IMG/VR virus record: IMGVR_UViG_3300044994_000560
Coordinates: 1 to 24,656 of that record
From: a virus
Strand: one strand, 5' to 3'
Length of the DNA stretch: 24,656 nt
Made by a program: the position numbers and the translations under genes. Positions within the stretch are counted from its first letter, which is position 1. Each line of letters begins with the position of its first letter. Positions 5,903-22,824 of the stretch are shown piece after piece. Under the pieces are notes generated by a model. That model ran no database searches. It had not been told where the DNA came from and worked only from the letters and a program-made list of their open reading frames with translations.

Positions 5903-5930
5903 GATGATAGACGGTGGAAAATGGACGATA
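5903..5930. repeat. 7-bp repeat array, second family
   Basis: Four 7-bp units are seen: GATGATA, GACGGTG, GAAAATG, GACGATA. They are degenerate but in register, and lie just before an array of the other heptad family. The units resemble the TGGAC-type heptads at 11685, 14194 and 15873. Confidence 0.4.
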
Positions 5931-5937
5931 AGCCTGT

Positions 5938-5968
5938 CTTGATTCTTGGCTCTTGATTCTTGGCTCTT
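5938..5968 (-). repeat. Heptad array (ARYCAAG family), about 4 units
   Basis: Reads CTTGATT CTTGGCT twice on the plus strand, that is AGCCAAG and AATCAAG on the minus strand, followed by a partial CTT. It ends 13 bp before the terminase small-subunit start, so it would lie in the 5' leader of the rightward late mRNA. Confidence 0.75.
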
Positions 5969-7964: not shown

Positions 7965-8435
7965 ATGTTCATCACAGTAGAAGAACTGAAGACACACCTG
8001 TATCCAGAGATCGTCAACGAAGTAGCCCGGTACCCGGCAATGACCGATGATGAAGAGCCGGTACCCACCAATCCTGAAGAAAACGAAATAGCACTCACCG
8101 CCATACAAACAGCTATTTCAGAGGCCAACGGCTACATGAGCCGTTATGATACCGCCACTTTATTTAATGCCTCAGGAAGCGACAGAGACGCTCACCTGGT
8201 CAATCTCATTAAAGACATGGCCGTTTGGCACTTCATAGTATTGGCCAATGCCAATGTAGAACTGGCATTGCGCGAAAAACGATACGACAATGCCATTGAA
8301 TACCTGGTAAGAGTGCAAGCAGGCAAAGTAGTACCCAACTGGCCATATGTGCCACAGAATACCTCATTGCCCGGCGGCGGTGCAGGGCAAAGTGTAAAGT
8401 TCAATTCCAATACCAAAAGAAGTAATCATTACTGA
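7965..8435 (+). CDS. DUF1320 family protein (Mu gp36-like)
   Basis: This is 156 residues from the ATG at 7965, 1 nt after the terminase stop. The frame is open further upstream, but that part lies inside the terminase gene, so this start is preferred. It begins MFITVEELKTHLYPEIV and is helical (ALTAIQTAISEANGYMSRYD, LVNLIKDMAVWHFIVLANA), ending in a Gly/Asn-rich tail. This pattern fits DUF1320, the Mu gp36 family, a small structural or head-tail connector protein of Mu-like phages. In Mu the gene lies elsewhere in the late operon; here it sits between terminase and portal. Confidence 0.75.
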   Translation: MFITVEELKTHLYPEIVNEVARYPAMTDDEEPVPTNPEENEIALTAIQTAISEANGYMSRYDTATLFNASGSDRDAHLVNLIKDMAVWHFIVLANANVELALREKRYDNAIEYLVRVQAGKVVPNWPYVPQNTSLPGGGAGQSVKFNSNTKRSNHY

Positions 8436-9697
8436 TGAGAACAAAGAATCAAGAGCCAAGAAACAAGACACTTACTTCGGCAGCACAGCCGGGTATAGTT
8501 GTTCAGAAAATAACCATACGCCCTGTTGAGCGCAGCAGATCCGACGTTCAAAGCTGGCGAAAAGCGCATCAGGCGGCTGAAAGTTACAGCAAGCTGCGCC
8601 GGCAGTTGTACGACCTCTATTCTGATGTCATTGTGGATGGTTTCACCTCCGAAACCATGAACAAGCGAATCAGGGCAGTAACCAACGGCGGCATCATGTT
8701 TTTTGACAAGAGTGGAAAAGAAGTGGATGCAGTCACTAAATACATCTACAGTCTTGCATTTCATCATCTGCTAAAGGAAATAGCCCTCACCCACGCCTGG
8801 GGTGTAACCGTGCTGGAATATATACCGCAAACCAAAAGCTGGTATTCAGTGCCTCGAAAACACATCTGGCCCCACGATAAGAAGATTACCTGGGAACAAA
8901 GCGGTGGCGATGGCATACACTACAACCAACCGCCTGAAAGCAATTACATCGTACAAGTTGGTGATGACGACGATTTGGGCTATCTGCTCCGTGTAACACC
9001 GCTTGTGTTGTACAAGCGTGGCAATTTGGGCGATTGGGCACAGTTTGCCGAAATTTTTGGAATGCCCTTCAGAGAGTATCGCTACAATGGCTATGACGAG
9101 AAAACCCGTCAGGAACTGGAAGTAACTGCCGAAAAAACCGGTGGAGCAGCTTATGCCATACTACCACAAGAGGCTGAATTCAAAATCCATCCCAACAACA
9201 GCACCGGCAGCAAAGATGTGTACAATGGGTTTCATGACGCGGTAAATAAAGAGATCCTCATATCCATTCTGGGCAATACCGAAACCACCCAAAGCAGCAG
9301 CAGCAGTGGATACGCACAAAGCGAAACTCACCTGAAAACAGAAGCCGAGGTAAAGGACGACGACCGCCGCTGGGTAGAGCGCGTGCTCAATGAAAAGATT
9401 CTGCCCATTATGGCACTGCACGGCTGGCCGGTGGAAGGTGGCTATTTCGCATATCCTGAAGCCAAAAAACAGCTCACACTCGATGAAGAGCTGAAGCTGG
9501 CCGGAAGCATGCCCATAGCCCGCAAATACTTCTACGAGAAGTACAATATTCCTATGCCGGAGGCAAGTGATGAACTGGTTAGTCAGCAGTCGGCAGTCAG
9601 TACACCACTGAATGAGAGCCAAGAGTCAAGAACCAAGAACCAAGACTTGAAAAAGCCGAAGGAGCTGAGCGCAGAACATCACCGTTTTTTCGGTTAG
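8435..9697 (+). CDS. Portal protein, DUF935 / Mu gp29-like
   Basis: This 420-residue portal subunit would form the ring through which DNA passes. Recognisable parts are YSKLRRQLYDLYSDVIVDG and FTSETMNKRIRAVTNG at the N-terminus, a wing and stem region around HAWGVTVLEYIPQT, FAEIFGMPFREYRYN, and ISILGNTETTQSSSSSGYAQ with a helix after it. Residues 3-11 (TKNQEPRNK) and about 395-404 (SQESRTKNQD) are translated 7-bp repeats. The gene starts inside the previous stop (TGATG). It ends at TAG 9695-9697, straight after a T TTT TTC slippery site and before a strong hairpin, so some ribosomes may shift to -1 and continue into F. Confidence 0.85.
   Translation: MRTKNQEPRNKTLTSAAQPGIVVQKITIRPVERSRSDVQSWRKAHQAAESYSKLRRQLYDLYSDVIVDGFTSETMNKRIRAVTNGGIMFFDKSGKEVDAVTKYIYSLAFHHLLKEIALTHAWGVTVLEYIPQTKSWYSVPRKHIWPHDKKITWEQSGGDGIHYNQPPESNYIVQVGDDDDLGYLLRVTPLVLYKRGNLGDWAQFAEIFGMPFREYRYNGYDEKTRQELEVTAEKTGGAAYAILPQEAEFKIHPNNSTGSKDVYNGFHDAVNKEILISILGNTETTQSSSSSGYAQSETHLKTEAEVKDDDRRWVERVLNEKILPIMALHGWPVEGGYFAYPEAKKQLTLDEELKLAGSMPIARKYFYEKYNIPMPEASDELVSQQSAVSTPLNESQESRTKNQDLKKPKELSAEHHRFFG
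8447..8467 (+). repeat. Heptad array inside the portal N-terminus
   Basis: Three exact units, AATCAAG, AGCCAAG and AAACAAG, lie just after the portal start codon and are translated as NQEPRNK. The array is free of stop codons in all three plus-strand frames. Confidence 0.75.
9617..9644 (+). repeat. Heptad array inside the portal C-terminus
   Basis: Four units, AGCCAAG, AGTCAAG, AACCAAG and AACCAAG, are translated in the portal frame as part of SQESRTKNQD. The array lies about 40 nt before the candidate frameshift site and would form a flexible linker. Confidence 0.8.
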
Positions 9698-13715: not shown

Positions 13716-13730
13716 AGTTTAGATTTTTAG

Positions 13731-13786
13731 AGCCAAGAACCAAGAGTCAAGAAACAAGAGCCAAGAACCAAGAGATAAGAATCAAG
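13731..13786 (+). repeat. Longest heptad array (8 units)
   Basis: Eight contiguous 7-bp units: AGCCAAG, AACCAAG, AGTCAAG, AAACAAG, AGCCAAG, AACCAAG, AGATAAG, AATCAAG. They define the consensus A-R-Y-C-A-A-G. The array fills most of the gap between the genes at 13715 and 13815 (both minus). Confidence 0.85.
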
Positions 13787-13814
13787 ACTGCCGTCCGGGG
13801 TCTGTGGACTGAAA

Positions 13815-14138: not shown

Positions 14139-14154
14139 GAGTTTAGATTTTTAG

Positions 14155-14175
14155 AGCCAAGTATCAAGAGCCAAG
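14155..14175 (+). repeat. Heptad array, 3 units
   Basis: AGCCAAG, TATCAAG, AGCCAAG, 17 bp before (in the transcribed direction) the start of the gene at 14138. Confidence 0.7.
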
Positions 14176-15496: not shown

Positions 15497-15832
15497 TCAG
15501 CATACGGCGGTTTTTGGCTGTTGACCTTGGTTAACTAATTCATTGATGCTGCTGTAAACAGGCAGACCCACTGCCATAGCGACCTCAAGTTCCATACGTG
15601 CGCCTTTACTATCCACCCAGCATGGAAGCAACAATACTGCATCGCACGCCATCAGCGCGGCTATACACTTGCGCATGGCTATATGCCAGGGGCATTTGAA
15701 ATCATTCACTACTTCCAATGGGTTGACAGGTGTAAATCCTTTATCGAGCAGCGCCACATGTGCCTGCCCGAATTTGTGTGTAACCTCTATCAGCGAAAGG
15801 CCGGTTACTTTTCCTGCTATGTATATTTTCAT
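15497..15832 (-). CDS. DUF4406 protein, nucleoside deoxyribosyltransferase-like
   Basis: This is 111 residues from the ATG at 15832; an in-frame upstream ATG at 15862 would pull part of a repeat array into the protein and is unlikely. It starts MKIYIAGKVTGL, the typical first strand and loop of the DUF4406 / nucleoside 2-deoxyribosyltransferase-like Rossmann fold. It has CDAVLLLPCWVDSKGARMEL followed by EVAMAVGLPVY, where the Glu in GARMELEVA is the likely catalytic or nucleotide-site residue. Such proteins are frequent in phages and may act in nucleotide salvage or modification; the actual substrate is unknown. Confidence 0.75.
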   Translation of the reverse strand: MKIYIAGKVTGLSLIEVTHKFGQAHVALLDKGFTPVNPLEVVNDFKCPWHIAMRKCIAALMACDAVLLLPCWVDSKGARMELEVAMAVGLPVYSSINELVNQGQQPKTAVC

Positions 15833-15849
15833 GGGATTAGATTTTTGAG

Positions 15850-15870
15850 TGTCAAGAACCAAGAGCCAAG
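15850..15870 (+). repeat. Heptad array, 3 units
   Basis: TGTCAAG, AACCAAG, AGCCAAG upstream of the DUF4406 start and directly joined to a second-family array at 15873. Confidence 0.65.
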
Positions 15871-15872
15871 TC

Positions 15873-15907
15873 TATGGTCTATCGTCTGTGATCCTCTGTC
15901 TATTTTC
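15873..15907. repeat. 7-bp repeat array, second family
   Basis: Units TATGGTC, TATCGTC, TGTGATC, CTCTGTC, TATTTTC. The array runs up to the TAG stop (15907-15909) of the glycosidase-like gene. Confidence 0.5.
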
Positions 15908-16914
15908 TATTTAACAGTTATGGCATTATATACATTGGTATTGCCTCCCGGCTTTTCTTCGCCTGTAAGCCGCCAGCGAAAGGCCATGTCAAAGTATTTT
16001 GGCAGTATGGTGTCTATTGAGCTTACATACAGCTCCCAGGCTTGCATATCTACACCCTGCATGCCTTTGCTTTCATGCTGCCACCAATATTCTGTCATAA
16101 CTTTCGGCACTGATGGTGCTACCTGACGCCCAAGCTTTGTACGAAGATTCATTTCGATATCTGCTACAGATCTGAATGAGCCCTGCTGATAAAGCTGAAA
16201 TGCAAAGTAATCGACATGGCTCCGGAGTGCTGTAAGGATGATAGTGTTCCAATCGATATATGCAGCATTCTCTTCCTCGGCCATAATAGCTGCAATGGGA
16301 GCATTGCGCTCTATCCGGCGGATGTCGTCAATATATTCTAGGCTAAGCTTCACATACTCTCTCGCTGCAATGTCATAAAGCTGTTTGGCTGATTGTCTGT
16401 TGCGATTGGTGATGTTGACCATCCTGGTAAGGACATTGGTAGGATTATAACTGGATCCAACTCTGAACTTTGTACCTACCACCAGCTCATTCATGTAGAG
16501 TTCATTTCCCAACTGTATGAGGGCAATGGGTACGTTGTTGGCTTTCAGGATTCGAAGGAGGCGAAGATTGTTATCGCGCCAGTTTACAAGTTCGGCTCCT
16601 TTGCCCGGTGTTTTTACGCCCATGCGCATCATCATCTCATAATCGAGTGTGAAGCTGATAGCTGCATGGCTACCTGTTCGCAGGCATAATTCGGCAAACT
16701 CCTCTGCAAAGGTGTATGGGTTGGTCAGGAAAGGGTCGTTATTAGCGAGGTTGCTGAGTTCACCTGCCTGTGTTTGCCCACCTGGAAACCTAAGAACAGG
16801 TGGGTGCAAAAAGTCTGCTGTAAGCTCATTATAGGCCCTTTCGAACTGCAATACACGATGTGGATAGGCTGCTACTTCCGGGAAATATGCGGTGATGTTA
16901 AATCCTTTTTTCAT
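15907..16914 (-). CDS. Predicted intracellular glycoside hydrolase, clan GH-A-like
   Basis: This 335-residue protein reads like a retaining glycosidase with a TIM barrel of clan GH-A. It has LRFPGGQTQ (41-49), ALIQLGNELYMNEL (131-144) with the Gly-Asn-Glu motif whose Glu138 would be the acid/base, and VPKVMTEYWW (269-278) whose Glu275 would be the nucleophile; the spacing of 137 residues suits the clan. FPGG plus GNE is reminiscent of GH79, GH39 or GH51-type enzymes; I cannot name the family. There is no signal peptide, so it should act in the cytoplasm or leave only at lysis. It sits between DUF3164 and DUF4406 in the early operon, far from the tail genes, an unusual place for a carbohydrate enzyme. 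It has the same style of A-rich leader as its neighbours. Confidence 0.6.
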   Translation of the reverse strand: MKKGFNITAYFPEVAAYPHRVLQFERAYNELTADFLHPPVLRFPGGQTQAGELSNLANNDPFLTNPYTFAEEFAELCLRTGSHAAISFTLDYEMMMRMGVKTPGKGAELVNWRDNNLRLLRILKANNVPIALIQLGNELYMNELVVGTKFRVGSSYNPTNVLTRMVNITNRNRQSAKQLYDIAAREYVKLSLEYIDDIRRIERNAPIAAIMAEEENAAYIDWNTIILTALRSHVDYFAFQLYQQGSFRSVADIEMNLRTKLGRQVAPSVPKVMTEYWWQHESKGMQGVDMQAWELYVSSIDTILPKYFDMAFRWRLTGEEKPGGNTNVYNAITVK

Positions 16915-16925
16915 TTTGGTTTGAT

Positions 16926-17579
16926 TTACAGATTTGCAAATGAAAGGTTAATGGGCTGGTCTTTTCCGGAATTGTCTTTCTTGAAGAAGGACATGTTGTA
17001 GCTTACTTCCCGTTCGCGGAACGACTCATTGAGGAGCTCCATGGCTTTGAGCCAGCGTTCGTCCTGGTAGTTGTCGCGAATTTTAAGCAGGTGTGCTACT
17101 TTAGCCGGGTTGAGGTCGCCGCTTTTGTTTTTGCTGAGCAGTGACGATACCAGGCGGTAGGTTTTGGCATCGCGCTTTTTTATTTTGTCTGCCAGAAAAT
17201 CTTCAATAAGCGTGATGGCCTGATCGGCTCGCTCATCATACTCGTACACAACATTTCTGTCGAGCCTGGCAAGGTACACACCGTCGGCAGTGCGCAATGA
17301 AAATCCGCCTTTTGAATCGGAGCGGATGTCGCTGTATTCTTTGGCGATCTCGCGGAACTCTTCGAAACGCGCTATGCATCGGGCCTTGAAATCTGCCAGC
17401 ATTATGTGCATCTCAACGGCTTCCACAATCATGGCCGATACCATGGTGTCGCGTTTTTGTTCATAGGCTTTCTTTCTGGCTGCCTGTGCAGCCTTTTGTG
17501 CCTGCTCTTGTTCTTTGAGCTTTTTCTTCAGCTCAGTCAGCTGTTGTGGCGTGAGCTGGTCAATGCTTAGTTCTGTCAT
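16926..17579 (-). CDS. DUF3164 family protein
   Basis: This 217-residue protein begins with a charged coiled-coil segment (about 10-50: TPQQLTELKKKLKEQEQAQK, then AARKKAYEQKRD) and a helix MHIMLADFKARCIARFEEFR. Then come GFSLRTADGVYLARLDRNVV, DERADQAITLIEDFLADKI and DERWLKAMELLNESFRE. The order matches DUF3164, a family typical of the early region of Mu-like phages, with unknown function. It starts 2 nt after the preceding gene's stop. It may stand in for early Mu genes such as gam, which I do not see, but that is inference. Confidence 0.8.
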   Translation of the reverse strand: MTELSIDQLTPQQLTELKKKLKEQEQAQKAAQAARKKAYEQKRDTMVSAMIVEAVEMHIMLADFKARCIARFEEFREIAKEYSDIRSDSKGGFSLRTADGVYLARLDRNVVYEYDERADQAITLIEDFLADKIKKRDAKTYRLVSSLLSKNKSGDLNPAKVAHLLKIRDNYQDERWLKAMELLNESFREREVSYNMSFFKKDNSGKDQPINLSFANL

Positions 17580-17944: not shown

Positions 17945-17971
17945 GGTGAGTATTTTTTTTTAGACTTTTAG

Positions 17972-17985
17972 AACCAAGAGTCAAG
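17972..17985 (+). repeat. Heptad pair
   Basis: AACCAAG and AGTCAAG. These are in the opposite orientation to the array at 18037-18071, so the transcript of this gap could fold back on itself. Confidence 0.6.
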
Positions 17986-18036
17986 ACAGCACTCTGTTGT
18001 TTTTCGATCTTCCATAACCGGGCTTTTATCTCTATG

Positions 18037-18071
18037 ATTGATTCTTGGTTCTTGATTCTTGGTTCTTGATT
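18037..18071 (-). repeat. Heptad array, 4-5 units
   Basis: CTTGGTT, CTTGATT, CTTGGTT, CTTGATT preceded by ATTGATT. It ends exactly at the stop codon (18072-18074) of the second ATPase gene. Confidence 0.8.
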
Positions 18072-18683
18072 CTATTCAGTTCCCCAGTATTCGATGGCTT
18101 TTTCAGGCCAGATATCGAAGTATCCGCCCGGGTTGTAGCGACCCATACTGATGGCTCTGTAGCCTTGTATGTGCAGCTTCAGGTCGGCATCGAAACGGAT
18201 GGCTTTGCACGGTCTTCCTTCGGGGCTGCTGCCTTGGGCGTGGCTGATGATGATGAACAGCTTTTCGGGAAATTCTTTCTTCAGCAGCAGGTAGTCTTTG
18301 TAGCTCATCTGGGTGTACTGCCAGCTATCAATGAAGATGTATTTGGGTGCACGCTTCTTGCGGAGGCGCATTTTCAGCTCTTCTATCTCTTCGCAGCCTA
18401 TGAGGATGTTGGCGCTATGCTCATGAAGTTGGAACCGCTGTACCTGTTCTTTCATAGTCATGCGGGCGCCTTCTTCGAGGGAGTTATAAAAACAGGGCCC
18501 CAGTGTGGCCAGCTCTTTGAGGAGCTGCATGCAAAAGGAGGTTTTGCCGTTGCCGGATAATCCCCAGATGAAAAAAACGCCGCTGTTTTCGGGGTTTCCG
18601 AAAGCTTGCTGCCAGCGTTCTGACCATTGGATGATATCGTACTTCTTTTGCATGATTTGGGTAGGGTTATAGGCTCGCTCCAT
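18072..18683 (-). CDS. Second P-loop ATPase, RecA/DnaB-like
   Basis: This 203-residue protein has a clear Walker A (GLSGNGKTS, 41-49) and Walker B (KYIFIDS, 114-120). It also has IIISHAQGS (144-152), resembling the segment after Walker B in RecA, RadA and DnaB-type ATPases, and a closing DADLKLHIQGYRAISMGRYN region. It lacks an N-terminal DNA-binding domain. It overlaps the end of the MuB-like gene by 17 nt, so the two are linked in translation and probably in function. Possible roles are target or replication-fork remodelling after strand transfer, or helicase loading. In Mu only one ATPase (B) serves this stage. Confidence 0.7.
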   Translation of the reverse strand: MERAYNPTQIMQKKYDIIQWSERWQQAFGNPENSGVFFIWGLSGNGKTSFCMQLLKELATLGPCFYNSLEEGARMTMKEQVQRFQLHEHSANILIGCEEIEELKMRLRKKRAPKYIFIDSWQYTQMSYKDYLLLKKEFPEKLFIIISHAQGSSPEGRPCKAIRFDADLKLHIQGYRAISMGRYNPGGYFDIWPEKAIEYWGTE

Positions 18684-19605
18684 TTTGTTCAGGGTTGTAT
18701 CCGAGCTTTGTTGAGGAAAGGATCAGTAGTGATTCAGCCCGGCGAAGGCCTCCTATTTCTCCGTTGGCATCGGTGAGGAGACATTTTTTTACCAGCTCGG
18801 GGAGGCGGCTTTTGTCGTCCATGTTGTGCTCGAGCACATCGCTGATGAGCTTGCGGTAGAAACTGATGCGCTCATTGCGGTCGGTAGGTATGATCTTCAT
18901 ATACCGGTCGCTGTACCGGCTGAATATTTCGCGGAAGCCGGTCTTTTTGGCACGTATGCCGTTGGTGATGAAGGTGCGCAGGCCATCGGCTCCGATGAGG
19001 TACCAGCCGCAGTGGTTTTCGGTGGCGTTCCACAGTTCTTTGAGTTCGAGAAAGGCGCGGTAGTTGAGGTCACCGGCTTCATCTACTATCACTATGGGGT
19101 GGTCGAGGATGGTGAGGCAGTATTTGATATCGGCTTTGATATCGGCATAGCGTTGGTTATTGTCCACACCCAGGGCTTTGGCTATTGCTCTGATAAAAAG
19201 TTGCTGTGTTTTAGCTTGTGAGGCATCAATGTAGAAGCAGTTCCTGAGTGTTTTGCTGAGGTATTTGGCAGCATATGTCTTGCCAATGGCACAGTCATCT
19301 ACGAGTATCATGCCTTTGGCGTTCTGCTGGCAGAACTGCACATCGCTTGCTATGGCTTCAAAGACTTCGGTACGCACCATGTTCCAGCGGCGGGCATGGA
19401 GGGTGATGTTGAGCTCGCGCCCTAATGAGATCCACTGTGCATCTTTGATGAGCGAGTCGCCTACTCCGGCGGTTTTGAGCCTCGAAAACACTGATGGGTT
19501 GATGTTGTATGATTTGGCAAAGGCGCTGTCGGTGCCTCCAAAGTTGGCACGCACCTTCAGCAGTGCTGCCAGTACTTGTTCTTTGAATTGCGGTGTTATT
19601 TGCAT
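18667..19605 (-). CDS. MuB-like transposition ATPase
   Basis: This 312-residue AAA+ protein has an N-terminal helix-turn-helix (about 20-50: GGTDSAFAKSYNINPSVFSR), a Walker A variant DDCAIGKT (103-110), Walker B IVIVDEAG (171-178), and a C-terminal helical part ending in a basic tail. MuB binds DNA non-specifically, delivers target DNA to the transposase and prevents self-insertion. It lies directly after the transposase gene in the Mu order A-B. The first Gly of the canonical Walker A is replaced by Asp, while the GKT is intact. Start 19605 has a TTTTAAAACAATATCACC leader. Confidence 0.85.
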   Translation of the reverse strand: MQITPQFKEQVLAALLKVRANFGGTDSAFAKSYNINPSVFSRLKTAGVGDSLIKDAQWISLGRELNITLHARRWNMVRTEVFEAIASDVQFCQQNAKGMILVDDCAIGKTYAAKYLSKTLRNCFYIDASQAKTQQLFIRAIAKALGVDNNQRYADIKADIKYCLTILDHPIVIVDEAGDLNYRAFLELKELWNATENHCGWYLIGADGLRTFITNGIRAKKTGFREIFSRYSDRYMKIIPTDRNERISFYRKLISDVLEHNMDDKSRLPELVKKCLLTDANGEIGGLRRAESLLILSSTKLGYNPEQNGASL

Positions 19606-19617
19606 GGTGATATTGTT

Positions 19618-21723
19618 TTAAAATCTTGATGCCGTGGATGTGGAGTATGCCTGCCTGCCGGAGGAAGGGGTGTTGTACCCGGGGGGTTCGATGGGTTCAG
19701 GGATGACCATAGAAGACTGACGCTCGTCTTGGCTCTTGGTTCCCGGCTCCTGGTTCCTGGCTCCAGGCTTCCTGATCGTGAATGTTTTGGGCTTTTCTTC
19801 TGCTGCTACTTCAAATATTTCTACGCGCTCAATAGAATGTCTGCCTGTCTTGATGAAGCCATCTACGGTAGCTTGGTATCTTGACATGAGTGCTCGGTTG
19901 TCATCATCTGCAGCGGTTCTTTCCAGCGATGATCTGTTGTATTTCAGATCGCCGAGCAGTTCGCATACTATAGCGCCATTGTGTACCAGTACTGCTTTAA
20001 GAACATTTCCATCGTTGTCATCGAGCCAATAACAATCCAAAGTTTTGCCTTCTACTTTCTTCAAAATCTGAATGAGCGTATCGCCTGTAGCAACACAGCC
20101 GTTCAGCCCCAGTACACGTTCCCGGTACTGGAGCTTCGCACGGCCTGCATTTACTGATGTGGGTGTACGGTGGCCTATGAATGGCAGTATGCCGTACCAG
20201 TTAATGGGTTTCAGATCGGGGTGCTGATTGGTTATCCAAACCTCCCAGCGCGTCATACCCGGGTATTTGTTCTGATCAGGATGAAGCGTGTTATTCCAGG
20301 TCTCGATGTCTTCATGCGCATTGTCAATGATAATGTCGGCAGGGATTTGCACTTTTTTGGCCACCCTGGCCTGATTACTCTCGCTGATGGCGAAGGGTCG
20401 GGCGAGCCATCCCTCGCGTTTCTTTTCAATGTTGTAGCGCAAATCGCGATAGAAGCGCTCTATGCGTTTGCCCCTGGCGTTATTGGCTTCAATGCGTACG
20501 GCAGAGAACATTACGCCAGGCGTGAGAAAGGTGCCCATGTATGAGGAATTGAGCGACATCTCTGCTTCCAGTTCTGCGGGCATATTGAAGCCCCATTCGG
20601 CAATGTTGCGGACAAGCTGGCGGTAAAACTCCAGTATGATCCCTTCTTTAGTGTCGCCGTATGTCCAGGCTATAAAAGCCTGAGAATGCAGATCAATGCC
20701 ATTATAGAACCATACCCTTTTTCCGCTGGTGCTTTCAAATGGCGGCTGACGGTCGTCGACAGATATCATCGATCCGCTGAAGTTGGGTGCCATTAGTTTG
20801 TGGTATGGCACATATTTGCTCTTATACTTTTGGTTATCGTCAGTCCGGAGACGTTCGTTGATGATTCTGTTTTCCCATTGTTGCAGGTAGTTGTACACCG
20901 AGGCCTCGCTGATGGGTGCGAATAGTTCGTTGTTTGGGTTGTAAACCTCACCGGTTTCAGAATTGACGATCTCAATCTTTCCCTGCAGGAACTGATCATA
21001 CCGGTGGGCAATTTCCAGATAAGTGGGTTTATGCCTTTGTGTGGCAAACATGTCGTTCCACAGCTTGACCATGAGGTCTGTCACTTTCTGGGCGTTGCTG
21101 TTGCCAAATTTTTCAGAAATGAGTGCTGCATAGCCCAGCTTGTGAAACTCATTCATCTTTTCGCGCAACCGGCGTTCATTTGTCGGCAGGTCGTGTTTAA
21201 CCTGATAGTTTCGCAAGAGGTAGTCGTTGAAATGATGAACATCAGCAACAACAGAAGACCAAACACCTCGGACGCTTCCTCCCATGCGGCGGTGCATGGC
21301 TTCGCGTTGGGTAAATAGTGATTTAGCAGCAGCCAATACCGAGGCATTGACCGTATAAACTACGCGGTACTTGGCTTCGAGATAATTACCGGTGGGGAGC
21401 TGGTAATTGTCGAAAAAAGTCCGTGCAGCCGCGTCCATGGTGAAGTGGTCTTCCAAAGGGTTACGCGAAGCCGTGGGTGCGCCAAAACGGGCGATTATAT
21501 TATGCTGCCATTTTGCAGGCAGTGAGGCAAATTCAATGAGTGAATTGCGGCCATTGCCGCCTTTTTGAAGGAGATTGCCGGTTCTGGACCACTTATCCCA
21601 AAGCGATTGTGAAACTATACCGGAGGCGCTGCGCTCTTTAACCAGCACATCGGCTCTTACGCACAATATGTTGTCTTTGTAGGCAAAGGGCGAGGTGGGC
21701 GATAGTTGCATGGGCGCGGTCAT
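19618..21723 (-). CDS. MuA-like DDE transposase
   Basis: This is a 701-residue protein. The N-terminal Mu-type DNA-binding domain runs to about residue 80 (VSQSLWDKWSRTGNLLQKGG). Two further helical domains follow. A catalytic core runs from about 310: MISVDDRQPP (Asp323/324), AEMSLNSSYMGTF (386-399), and IEANNARGKRIERFY (411-425, Glu412 or Glu422). The beta-barrel and C-terminal parts follow. It cuts and joins the prophage ends in replicative transposition. The second acidic residue appears to be Glu (386 or 388) rather than Asp. Residues 652-667 are encoded by a degenerate heptad array; the rest of the C-terminus is Pro/Ser-rich, whereas MuA ends in a domain that contacts B and ClpX. The start lies 10 nt after repeat R1. 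Confidence 0.9.
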   Translation of the reverse strand: MTAPMQLSPTSPFAYKDNILCVRADVLVKERSASGIVSQSLWDKWSRTGNLLQKGGNGRNSLIEFASLPAKWQHNIIARFGAPTASRNPLEDHFTMDAAARTFFDNYQLPTGNYLEAKYRVVYTVNASVLAAAKSLFTQREAMHRRMGGSVRGVWSSVVADVHHFNDYLLRNYQVKHDLPTNERRLREKMNEFHKLGYAALISEKFGNSNAQKVTDLMVKLWNDMFATQRHKPTYLEIAHRYDQFLQGKIEIVNSETGEVYNPNNELFAPISEASVYNYLQQWENRIINERLRTDDNQKYKSKYVPYHKLMAPNFSGSMISVDDRQPPFESTSGKRVWFYNGIDLHSQAFIAWTYGDTKEGIILEFYRQLVRNIAEWGFNMPAELEAEMSLNSSYMGTFLTPGVMFSAVRIEANNARGKRIERFYRDLRYNIEKKREGWLARPFAISESNQARVAKKVQIPADIIIDNAHEDIETWNNTLHPDQNKYPGMTRWEVWITNQHPDLKPINWYGILPFIGHRTPTSVNAGRAKLQYRERVLGLNGCVATGDTLIQILKKVEGKTLDCYWLDDNDGNVLKAVLVHNGAIVCELLGDLKYNRSSLERTAADDDNRALMSRYQATVDGFIKTGRHSIERVEIFEVAAEEKPKTFTIRKPGARNQEPGTKSQDERQSSMVIPEPIEPPGYNTPSSGRQAYSTSTASRF
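19728..19769 (-). repeat. Degenerate heptad array inside the transposase C-terminus
   Basis: CTTGGCT, CTTGGTT, CCCGGCT, CCTGGTT, CCTGGCT, CCAGGCT: two good units and four drifted ones. Read in the transposase frame it gives GARNQEPGTKSQDE. Confidence 0.7.
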
Positions 21724-21732
21724 TGGGATGAT

Positions 21733-21763
21733 TGGTTATATTTGGGAAAATCTCACCTGTATG
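21733..21763. repeat. R1 direct repeat, copy 1 (31 bp, before the transposase)
   Basis: Identical over 31 bp to 22242-22272, beginning TGGTTATATTTGGG and ending CACCTGTATG. In the operon direction it sits 10 bp before the transposase ATG. In the other direction it contains an exact -7 consensus (TATATTTG) 17 bp before an ATG. Confidence 0.85.
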
Positions 21764-21797: not shown

Positions 21798-22214
21798 TTA
21801 TTGGCAATTTGAAGCTGACAAATCAGTTTCTTTATGAGGTGCTGACTGATGAGCAGAAGGCTCTTTACAGAGAGCGTTTACAACGCTTGAAAGAGCATCA
21901 TGTATCTTCTGATCTAAGTCAGAAGATGTTTGATTTACTCTTTCAAGAGCAGCAGTAAGCTCTTCCGCCGATAGCTCTCGACAACCATTTGTCTGGATTG
22001 TAATGTTGACATCCTTGGCTATAGCGTCAATGTTGAAGACTACTGTTTTTTGAAGGTTGGGCAGTTGGCTGATAATCTCCAGCAGGTGCTGACGTTCTGC
22101 AATCAGGTTTATTACTGCCGTTTCACTTTGAACACTCAAAGGGAAGCGGTTTGCCGCCTTTTCGATGGCATCAGCCACCTGTAGCAGATACTGGGCGAGT
22201 TGTTCTGTATTCAT
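21798..22214 (-). CDS. Cassette ORF 2, unknown early protein
   Basis: This 138-residue protein is helical: MNTEQLAQYLLQVADAIEKA, then FPLSVQSETAVINLIAERQH with LLEIISQL, a short beta part (TVVFNIDAIAKDVNITIQTN), and a polar, less ordered tail. It is flanked by repeat R2 at its start and by R1 after its end, exactly like the next gene upstream, yet the proteins look unrelated. An antisense ORF (21761-21958, plus) overlaps its last third; I prefer this strand because of operon direction and the repeated start context. No family was recognised; a role in transposition control is possible because of the position just before the transposase. Confidence 0.55.
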   Translation of the reverse strand: MNTEQLAQYLLQVADAIEKAANRFPLSVQSETAVINLIAERQHLLEIISQLPNLQKTVVFNIDAIAKDVNITIQTNGCRELSAEELTAALERVNQTSSDLDQKIHDALSSVVNALCKEPSAHQSAPHKETDLSASNCQ

Positions 22215-22237
22215 GATTTTATGGATTGACGGGTGAT
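22211..22237. repeat. R2 direct repeat, copy 1 (27 bp, start of cassette ORF 2)
   Basis: Matches 22798-22824 at 26 of 27 positions (TCATGAT, one variable base, then TTATGGATTGACGGGTGAT). It includes the ATG and the leader of the minus-strand gene starting at 22214. Confidence 0.85.
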
Positions 22238-22241
22238 AGAA

Positions 22242-22272
22242 TGGTTATATTTGGGAAAATCTCACCTGTATG
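22242..22272. repeat. R1 direct repeat, copy 2
   Basis: Perfect 31-bp copy of 21733-21763, 4 bp from R2 copy 1. It follows the end of cassette ORF 1 and precedes the start of cassette ORF 2. Confidence 0.85.
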
Positions 22273-22294: not shown

Positions 22295-22801
22295 TTATAA
22301 GTTTTCTGATAGTGGATTGGTCAAAGAATCACCGGATGGATCATTTTGACTGGAGCAAACAGTCGAAAGCTTTCCAGCATCTTGGAGCGCAGTTGCTACA
22401 TCTGCTTGAAGCGGTTCCGGGAACTCAAGTAAGATGCTCACCCTACTTCCACAATAGTGGAACTGAAAGCGAAGTGTGTGCGCATCCTGCACACAGCATT
22501 CATGTGTTATGCGATGTATCTCATTATGACGAAGTGATACGGTACCACAACCTTTATCAGGCAATTGCACATTTACATTACGAACGCCTAATGTCTTTTC
22601 AATTTCGCTTAAAACAATACGATCCTCAGGCTCGATATCGGCTGGAGCTTCGATGGTGATTCTGGTTCTTACCTTTTCTGGAAGCGCCATCCGAGGTAGT
22701 AGATCTGAATGATGCCTGATAGATCTGTAATTGGCCTCTATCTTTTGGGCGTGGCTGCTTTCAAAAGACGGCTCTGTCTTTGATTTGATTGCACTTGTCA
22801 T
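22295..22801 (-). CDS. Cassette ORF 1, unknown early protein
   Basis: This is a 168-residue protein. The middle part (KVRTRITIEAPADIEPEDRI, SEIEKTLGVRNVNVQLPDKG) has a folded alpha/beta character; the ends are polar. There are several Cys and His residues (HECCVQDAHTLRFQFHYCGS), perhaps a metal site. It starts within R2 copy 2 and is followed by R1 copy 2. It is the second gene of the early operon, after the Ner-like gene, with which it nearly overlaps. The antisense 22270-22659 ORF is likely a shadow. No family was recognised. Confidence 0.55.
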   Translation of the reverse strand: MTSAIKSKTEPSFESSHAQKIEANYRSIRHHSDLLPRMALPEKVRTRITIEAPADIEPEDRIVLSEIEKTLGVRNVNVQLPDKGCGTVSLRHNEIHRITHECCVQDAHTLRFQFHYCGSRVSILLEFPEPLQADVATALQDAGKLSTVCSSQNDPSGDSLTNPLSENL

Positions 22802-22824
22802 GATGTTATGGATTGACGGGTGAT
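22798..22824. repeat. R2 direct repeat, copy 2
   Basis: Second copy of the 27-bp R2 element. It holds the ATG of the gene starting at 22801 and also the TAA stop of the Ner-like gene (22806-22808). Confidence 0.85.

Follow-up and report, generated by a model that had tools for sequence, protein, structure and literature searches.

Viruses of bacteria are known to carry glycosidases as auxiliary genes, among them an active GH5 endomannanase (PMC6786970) and a chitosanase (PMC9485262), and a preprint describes RyDEP, a glycosidase with which a phage breaks down cyclic ADP-ribose signals (PMC13232231). The gene product described here, P0001, resembles the first two in being a putative phage-encoded glycosidase carried as an auxiliary gene, but the substrates of those enzymes are polysaccharides and their CAZy families are established, whereas P0001 has no signal peptide and is encoded in an early operon. 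With RyDEP it would share a site of action inside the cell, although the fold of RyDEP is that of an RyR domain and P0001 is assigned to clan GH-A. Within this clan, the GH51 alpha-L-arabinofuranosidases (2c7f, 3s2c, 3ug3, 1pz3) have RxPGG on strand 2, GNE on strand 4 and a glutamate on strand 7, a motif pattern that recurs on putative strands of P0001. The GH51 enzymes also have a C-terminal beta-sandwich domain (PF06964), in contrast to P0001, which stops at residue 335, right after its putative strand 8.

The window, that is, the whole stretch of DNA analysed, is a virus record of 24,656 bases. It comes from a Mu-like Bacteroidota phage, whose relatives include hankyphage and phages like it, and encodes MuA (phrog_310), MuB (phrog_296), an ATPase (phrog_6891), DUF3164 and DUF4406 proteins, a repressor, a tail sheath protein and a terminase. 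The features around the glycosidase-like gene are as follows.

15907..16914, minus strand: glycosidase-like gene P0001, 335 aa, ATG start (open reading frame and translation; family HMM E = 8e-11)
16777..16791, minus strand: RFPGG motif, residues 42-46, putative strand 2 (invariant in the cellular family)
16501..16509, minus strand: GNE motif, residues 136-138, with Glu138 as putative acid/base on strand 4 (invariant in the family)
16081..16095, minus strand: TEYWW motif, residues 274-278, with Glu275 as putative nucleophile on strand 7 (aligned to TE[WY]N by hhalign without an accuracy cut-off)
16926..17579, minus strand: DUF3164 gene, upstream neighbour (Pfam PF11363, E 6.8e-22; phrog_846)
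15497..15832, minus strand: DUF4406 gene (nucleoside deoxyribosyltransferase-like), downstream neighbour, start set at the ATG of MKIYIAGK (Pfam PF14359, E 1.3e-18; phrog_355)
15835..15870, no strand: CAAGAACCAAGAG-type dispersed repeat between the glycosidase-like gene and the DUF4406 gene (repeat search, family D1)
18072..21723, minus strand: genes for the ATPase, MuB and MuA, in the same early operon (phrog_6891, phrog_296, phrog_310)

The ATG of the glycosidase-like gene lies 11 bp past the DUF3164 stop, the DUF4406 gene is co-directional with it, and the tail genes are more than 10 kb away. An earlier note, made from the sequence, had placed the gene in the early operon of a transposable phage and away from the tail fibres, and the identification of MuA, MuB, the phrog_6891 ATPase and DUF3164 alongside it agrees with both statements. 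The three motifs that the note had named, FPGG, GNE (Glu138) and TEYWW (Glu275), are all present in the 335-aa minus-strand frame, and there is no open frame on the plus strand of 15907-16914. The signal peptide was likewise rightly said to be absent: the N-terminus of P0001 shows no evident signal peptide or membrane stretch, its best 12-residue hydropathy being 0.76 versus 2.1-2.5 at the N-termini of three secreted relatives. The GC content, GC3 and synonymous codon use of the gene fall inside the range of the window's other genes. A Bacteroidota-type promoter was sought directly upstream of the gene and none was found, and an Rfam search of the window gave no match. Elsewhere in the early region, near-identical direct repeats (21730-21763 with 22239-22272, 97%; 22211-22237 with 22798-22824, 96%) sit just 5' of the MuA start codon and of those of the two early genes that precede MuA, and are possibly shared operators or leaders.

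Direct searches with P0001 returned nothing from Pfam at E values up to 10, nothing significant from PHROGs (best 0.13) and no homologue from the PDB or from phages, plasmids, viral contigs and genome contigs. The best NCBIfam hit, at 0.027, was the arabinofuranosidase ArfA with 13.4 bits, where the cut-off is 625, and there is thus no direct match to a GH51 family model in either Pfam or NCBIfam. Five weak genome matches were judged to be chance, scans of viral contigs for an FPGG-gap-GNE DNA pattern gave false matches only, and among 80 further LRFPGG loci both motifs occurred in just five proteins, none of them close to P0001. In 163 related phage and prophage loci, phmmer found no relative at E values up to 10, and the RFPGG, GNE and TE motifs occur together in none of their approximately 15,000 ORFs besides P0001. 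These phages retain the ATPase, and often DUF3164 and a replication-type gene, without a glycosidase-like gene. Because it is absent from related loci that keep the neighbouring genes, the glycosidase-like gene is accessory, a cargo gene of a transposable phage. Other accessory ORFs in the early regions of the relatives encode C5 and N6 DNA methylases, reverse transcriptases, Mu Gam, HNH proteins, PAPS reductase and radical SAM proteins. We set aside an obligate pairing with DUF4406, as relatives carry DUF4406 without the glycosidase-like gene. Two of the closest phages encode a reverse transcriptase together with C-type-lectin-like proteins bearing a GSRLCFK motif (L086:8939-11780 and L087:7444-9492), a set that resembles a diversity-generating retroelement and lies in the early operon just after DUF3164, not by the tail genes.

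A cellular relative of P0001 emerged from a wider search of 396 genomes belonging to the order of G001 (the genome of L028, a Saprospiraceae MAG). This protein of 369 aa, L309 (also L303), was found at E = 1.4e-5 and matches P0001 pairwise at 2e-12 over residues 3-227. Through it, 19 usable sequences were collected from the 13 genomes of its family, and an HMM built from these 19, with P0001 excluded, recovered P0001 at E = 8e-11 among approximately 15,000 ORFs, the next ORF scoring 0.086. In hhalign the match of P0001 to the family has a probability of 97.6% (E = 3.5e-12). Masking of all three motifs left P0001 with a score of 43.1, against a maximum of 28.1 for 150 masked shuffles and 27.6 for 200 real decoys, and since the masked score stays far above both, the homology extends beyond the motifs. 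By comparison, we discarded as evidence the 72-87% that hhalign gave for a generic GH51-like profile, because this match rested on a single 11-residue motif: motif-keeping shuffles scored 40.9 +/- 2.9 versus 42.7 for P0001, and the signal vanished once RFPGG was masked.

The family belongs to Bacteroidota, is mostly secreted, and is represented by no Pfam or NCBIfam model. It shares with P0001 the RFPGG, GNE and TE-aromatic motifs in the same order and at similar spacing, in an alignment over residues 3-244; RFPGG, GNE and TE are conserved in the family, and both glutamates are invariant in 14 cellular members. At approximately 25% identity to the family, P0001 keeps Arg42, Asn137, Glu138, Tyr242 and Glu275. 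Glu138 aligns directly to the family GNE, whereas the assignment of Glu275 to the TE of TE[WY]N, obtained with hhalign without an accuracy cut-off, is weaker, and a MAFFT alignment misplaces this end of P0001. There are also clear differences. Family members are mostly secreted and have a T-x-AN-Y-H loop after RFPGG, a histidine on strand 6 and a further C-terminal part, whereas P0001 has QTQAG in place of the loop and Gln240 in place of the histidine, and its C-terminus is shorter than that of the cellular proteins by approximately 20 residues, their last helix included.

The placement in clan GH-A is reached in two steps, from P0001 to the family and from the family to GH51 structures. GH51, GH79 and GH39 all belong to clan GH-A. 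A profile of 14 cellular members, again without P0001, matched GH51 arabinofuranosidase structures at 1.1e-5 at best, and including P0001 brought the best match to 3.5e-7, with weak matches to GH79 and GH39. Because its profile matches GH51 structures, the family is placed in clan GH-A, and on these sequence comparisons we regard the homology of P0001 to the family, and its membership of the clan, as close to certain. Asn137-Glu138 fits the Asn-Glu acid/base at the end of strand 4 that is typical of clan GH-A, and Glu275 fits the nucleophile at the end of strand 7, the latter through the weaker of the two alignments. Eight strand-like stretches picked out by eye (approximately residues 4-10, 39-43, 83-89, 130-136, 206-213, 235-242, 270-276 and 309-314) would be consistent with a (beta/alpha)8 TIM barrel. 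The clan GH-A glycosidase proposed in the earlier note has thus gained profile homology and the conservation of both glutamates in a cellular family.

As for the conservation of the two glutamates among phage homologues, which the earlier note had proposed to examine, a single protein could be checked. This is P0002 (L332, IMG/VR 3300020051_000030), a family member of 328 aa encoded by a phage of 43 kb.

L332:7992-8975: P0002 gene, between tail-fibre-like genes and a holin-like gene

P0002 keeps GNE and TE, and ends at the same point as P0001, before the last helix. Unlike P0001, it has a signal peptide and a TVAN loop, and its neighbours are tail-fibre-like and holin-like genes. The P0002 phage also carries two glycosyltransferase-like genes (L338:14559-15218 and 18998-19999). 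In the family tree P0001 falls, on a branch of 3.99, with the L309-L312 clade at moderate support (88/80), and the two phage proteins are not grouped, very long branches making both placements unsure.

The window further contains dispersed repeats with a 7-nt period (AAGAACCAAGAGCCAAG and its complement; CAAGAACCAAGAG-type) in about eight places. They are mostly intergenic, but some lie within the portal-like and MuA ORFs, at their ends.

AAGAACCAAGAGCCAAG repeats: 5925-5968, 8425-8481, 9615-9658, 13716-13793, 14140-14175, 15835-15870, 17957-18081, 19722-19765

No CAAGAACCAAGAG-type repeats were found in any of the related phage loci, nor in the other compared loci (approximately 3 Mb in all), except for two that had been retrieved by the pattern itself. 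They are present in 2 of 38 genomes of one order, by far most abundantly in G433, with 19 matches, and G433 also holds the closest relative of the P0001 gene. The combination of repeat richness and closest relative points to a host near G433 and perhaps to where the P0001 gene came from, but both are suggestive only.

The reading that we favour, and hold to be somewhat probable as a whole, is that P0001 is a single-domain retaining glycosidase of clan GH-A that diverged from a mostly secreted, GH51-like family of Bacteroidota, and that its gene is cargo in the early operon of a transposable phage and encodes no signal peptide. P0001 would be made with the early genes and would probably hydrolyse a small glycoside in the host cytosol through a double-displacement mechanism, in which Glu138 would serve as the acid/base and Glu275 would be the nucleophile. 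We infer the barrel fold, catalysis, the cytosolic site, early expression and acquisition from a bacterial host. Since there is no export signal, P0001 probably acts inside the infected cell, and we consider it likely that it is enzymatically active. Two of the closest cellular relatives (L308:6871-10133; L310) lie directly upstream of galT and galK, as read from the sequences, which makes a galactoside a weak lead for the substrate of P0001; the same neighbours are a substrate clue for a family without Pfam or NCBIfam model.

Because P0001 is highly divergent and lacks the loop, the histidine and the last helix, its activity may be altered or lost. A pseudo-enzyme, in which the barrel has been retained for binding a sugar or a nucleotide (as a sponge or an inhibitor of a host protein) and catalyses nothing, would fit these losses and the very long branch. 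We nevertheless regard it as rather unlikely, for both catalytic glutamates, Asn137, Arg42 and Tyr242 are retained despite the low identity, and P0002 stops at the same point, so that the missing helix need not mean decay. That the resemblance is a chance match of short motifs without homology is hardly credible: such a reading would account for the generic GH51-like signal, which equals that of motif-keeping shuffles, but the match to the closer family covers the full domain in pairwise comparison and survives the masking of every motif, far above decoys.

Two further alternatives concern what the enzyme would do. P0001 could be an anti-defence or anti-restriction enzyme whose target would be a glycosidic bond, either of an immune signal or of modified DNA. 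The substrates of GH51 enzymes are furanosides, and DNA methylases and other nucleic-acid genes are found among the accessory ORFs in the early regions of related phages; both points are compatible with such a role. A counter-defence function is also thinkable by analogy with RyDEP, the phage enzyme of a different fold that breaks down cyclic ADP-ribose immune signals (PMC13232231). The cellular relatives examined, however, all look secreted or adjoin sugar genes, and we consider this role improbable. In its most specific version P0001 would be a cytosolic immune-evasion glycosidase on a GH51-like furanosidase barrel, and would cleave either a sugar carried by modified DNA or the ribosyl O-glycosidic bond of a host signal such as a cyclic ADP-ribose isomer of Thoeris. 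This version seems very improbable; we know of no use of clan GH-A for cleaving immune signals or sugars on modified DNA. Comparably improbable is a polysaccharide depolymerase associated with the virion or with lysis. The sole other phage member found, with its signal peptide and its place between tail-fibre-like and holin-like genes, would suit that function, but the P0001 gene lies in the early operon, far from the tail genes, rather than among tail-fibre genes as those of phage tail depolymerases do, and its product has no signal peptide.

A family of the sugar-cleaving type from Bacteroidota, for which neither Pfam nor NCBIfam has a model, has thus made its way into two or more dissimilar phages, in one case as an early gene without a signal. 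The sequences collected here could found a new family model, and the preferred reading of P0001 as a cargo glycosidase of the host cytosol raises a testable question, namely which intracellular glycoside would be worth attacking during phage takeover or lysogeny.
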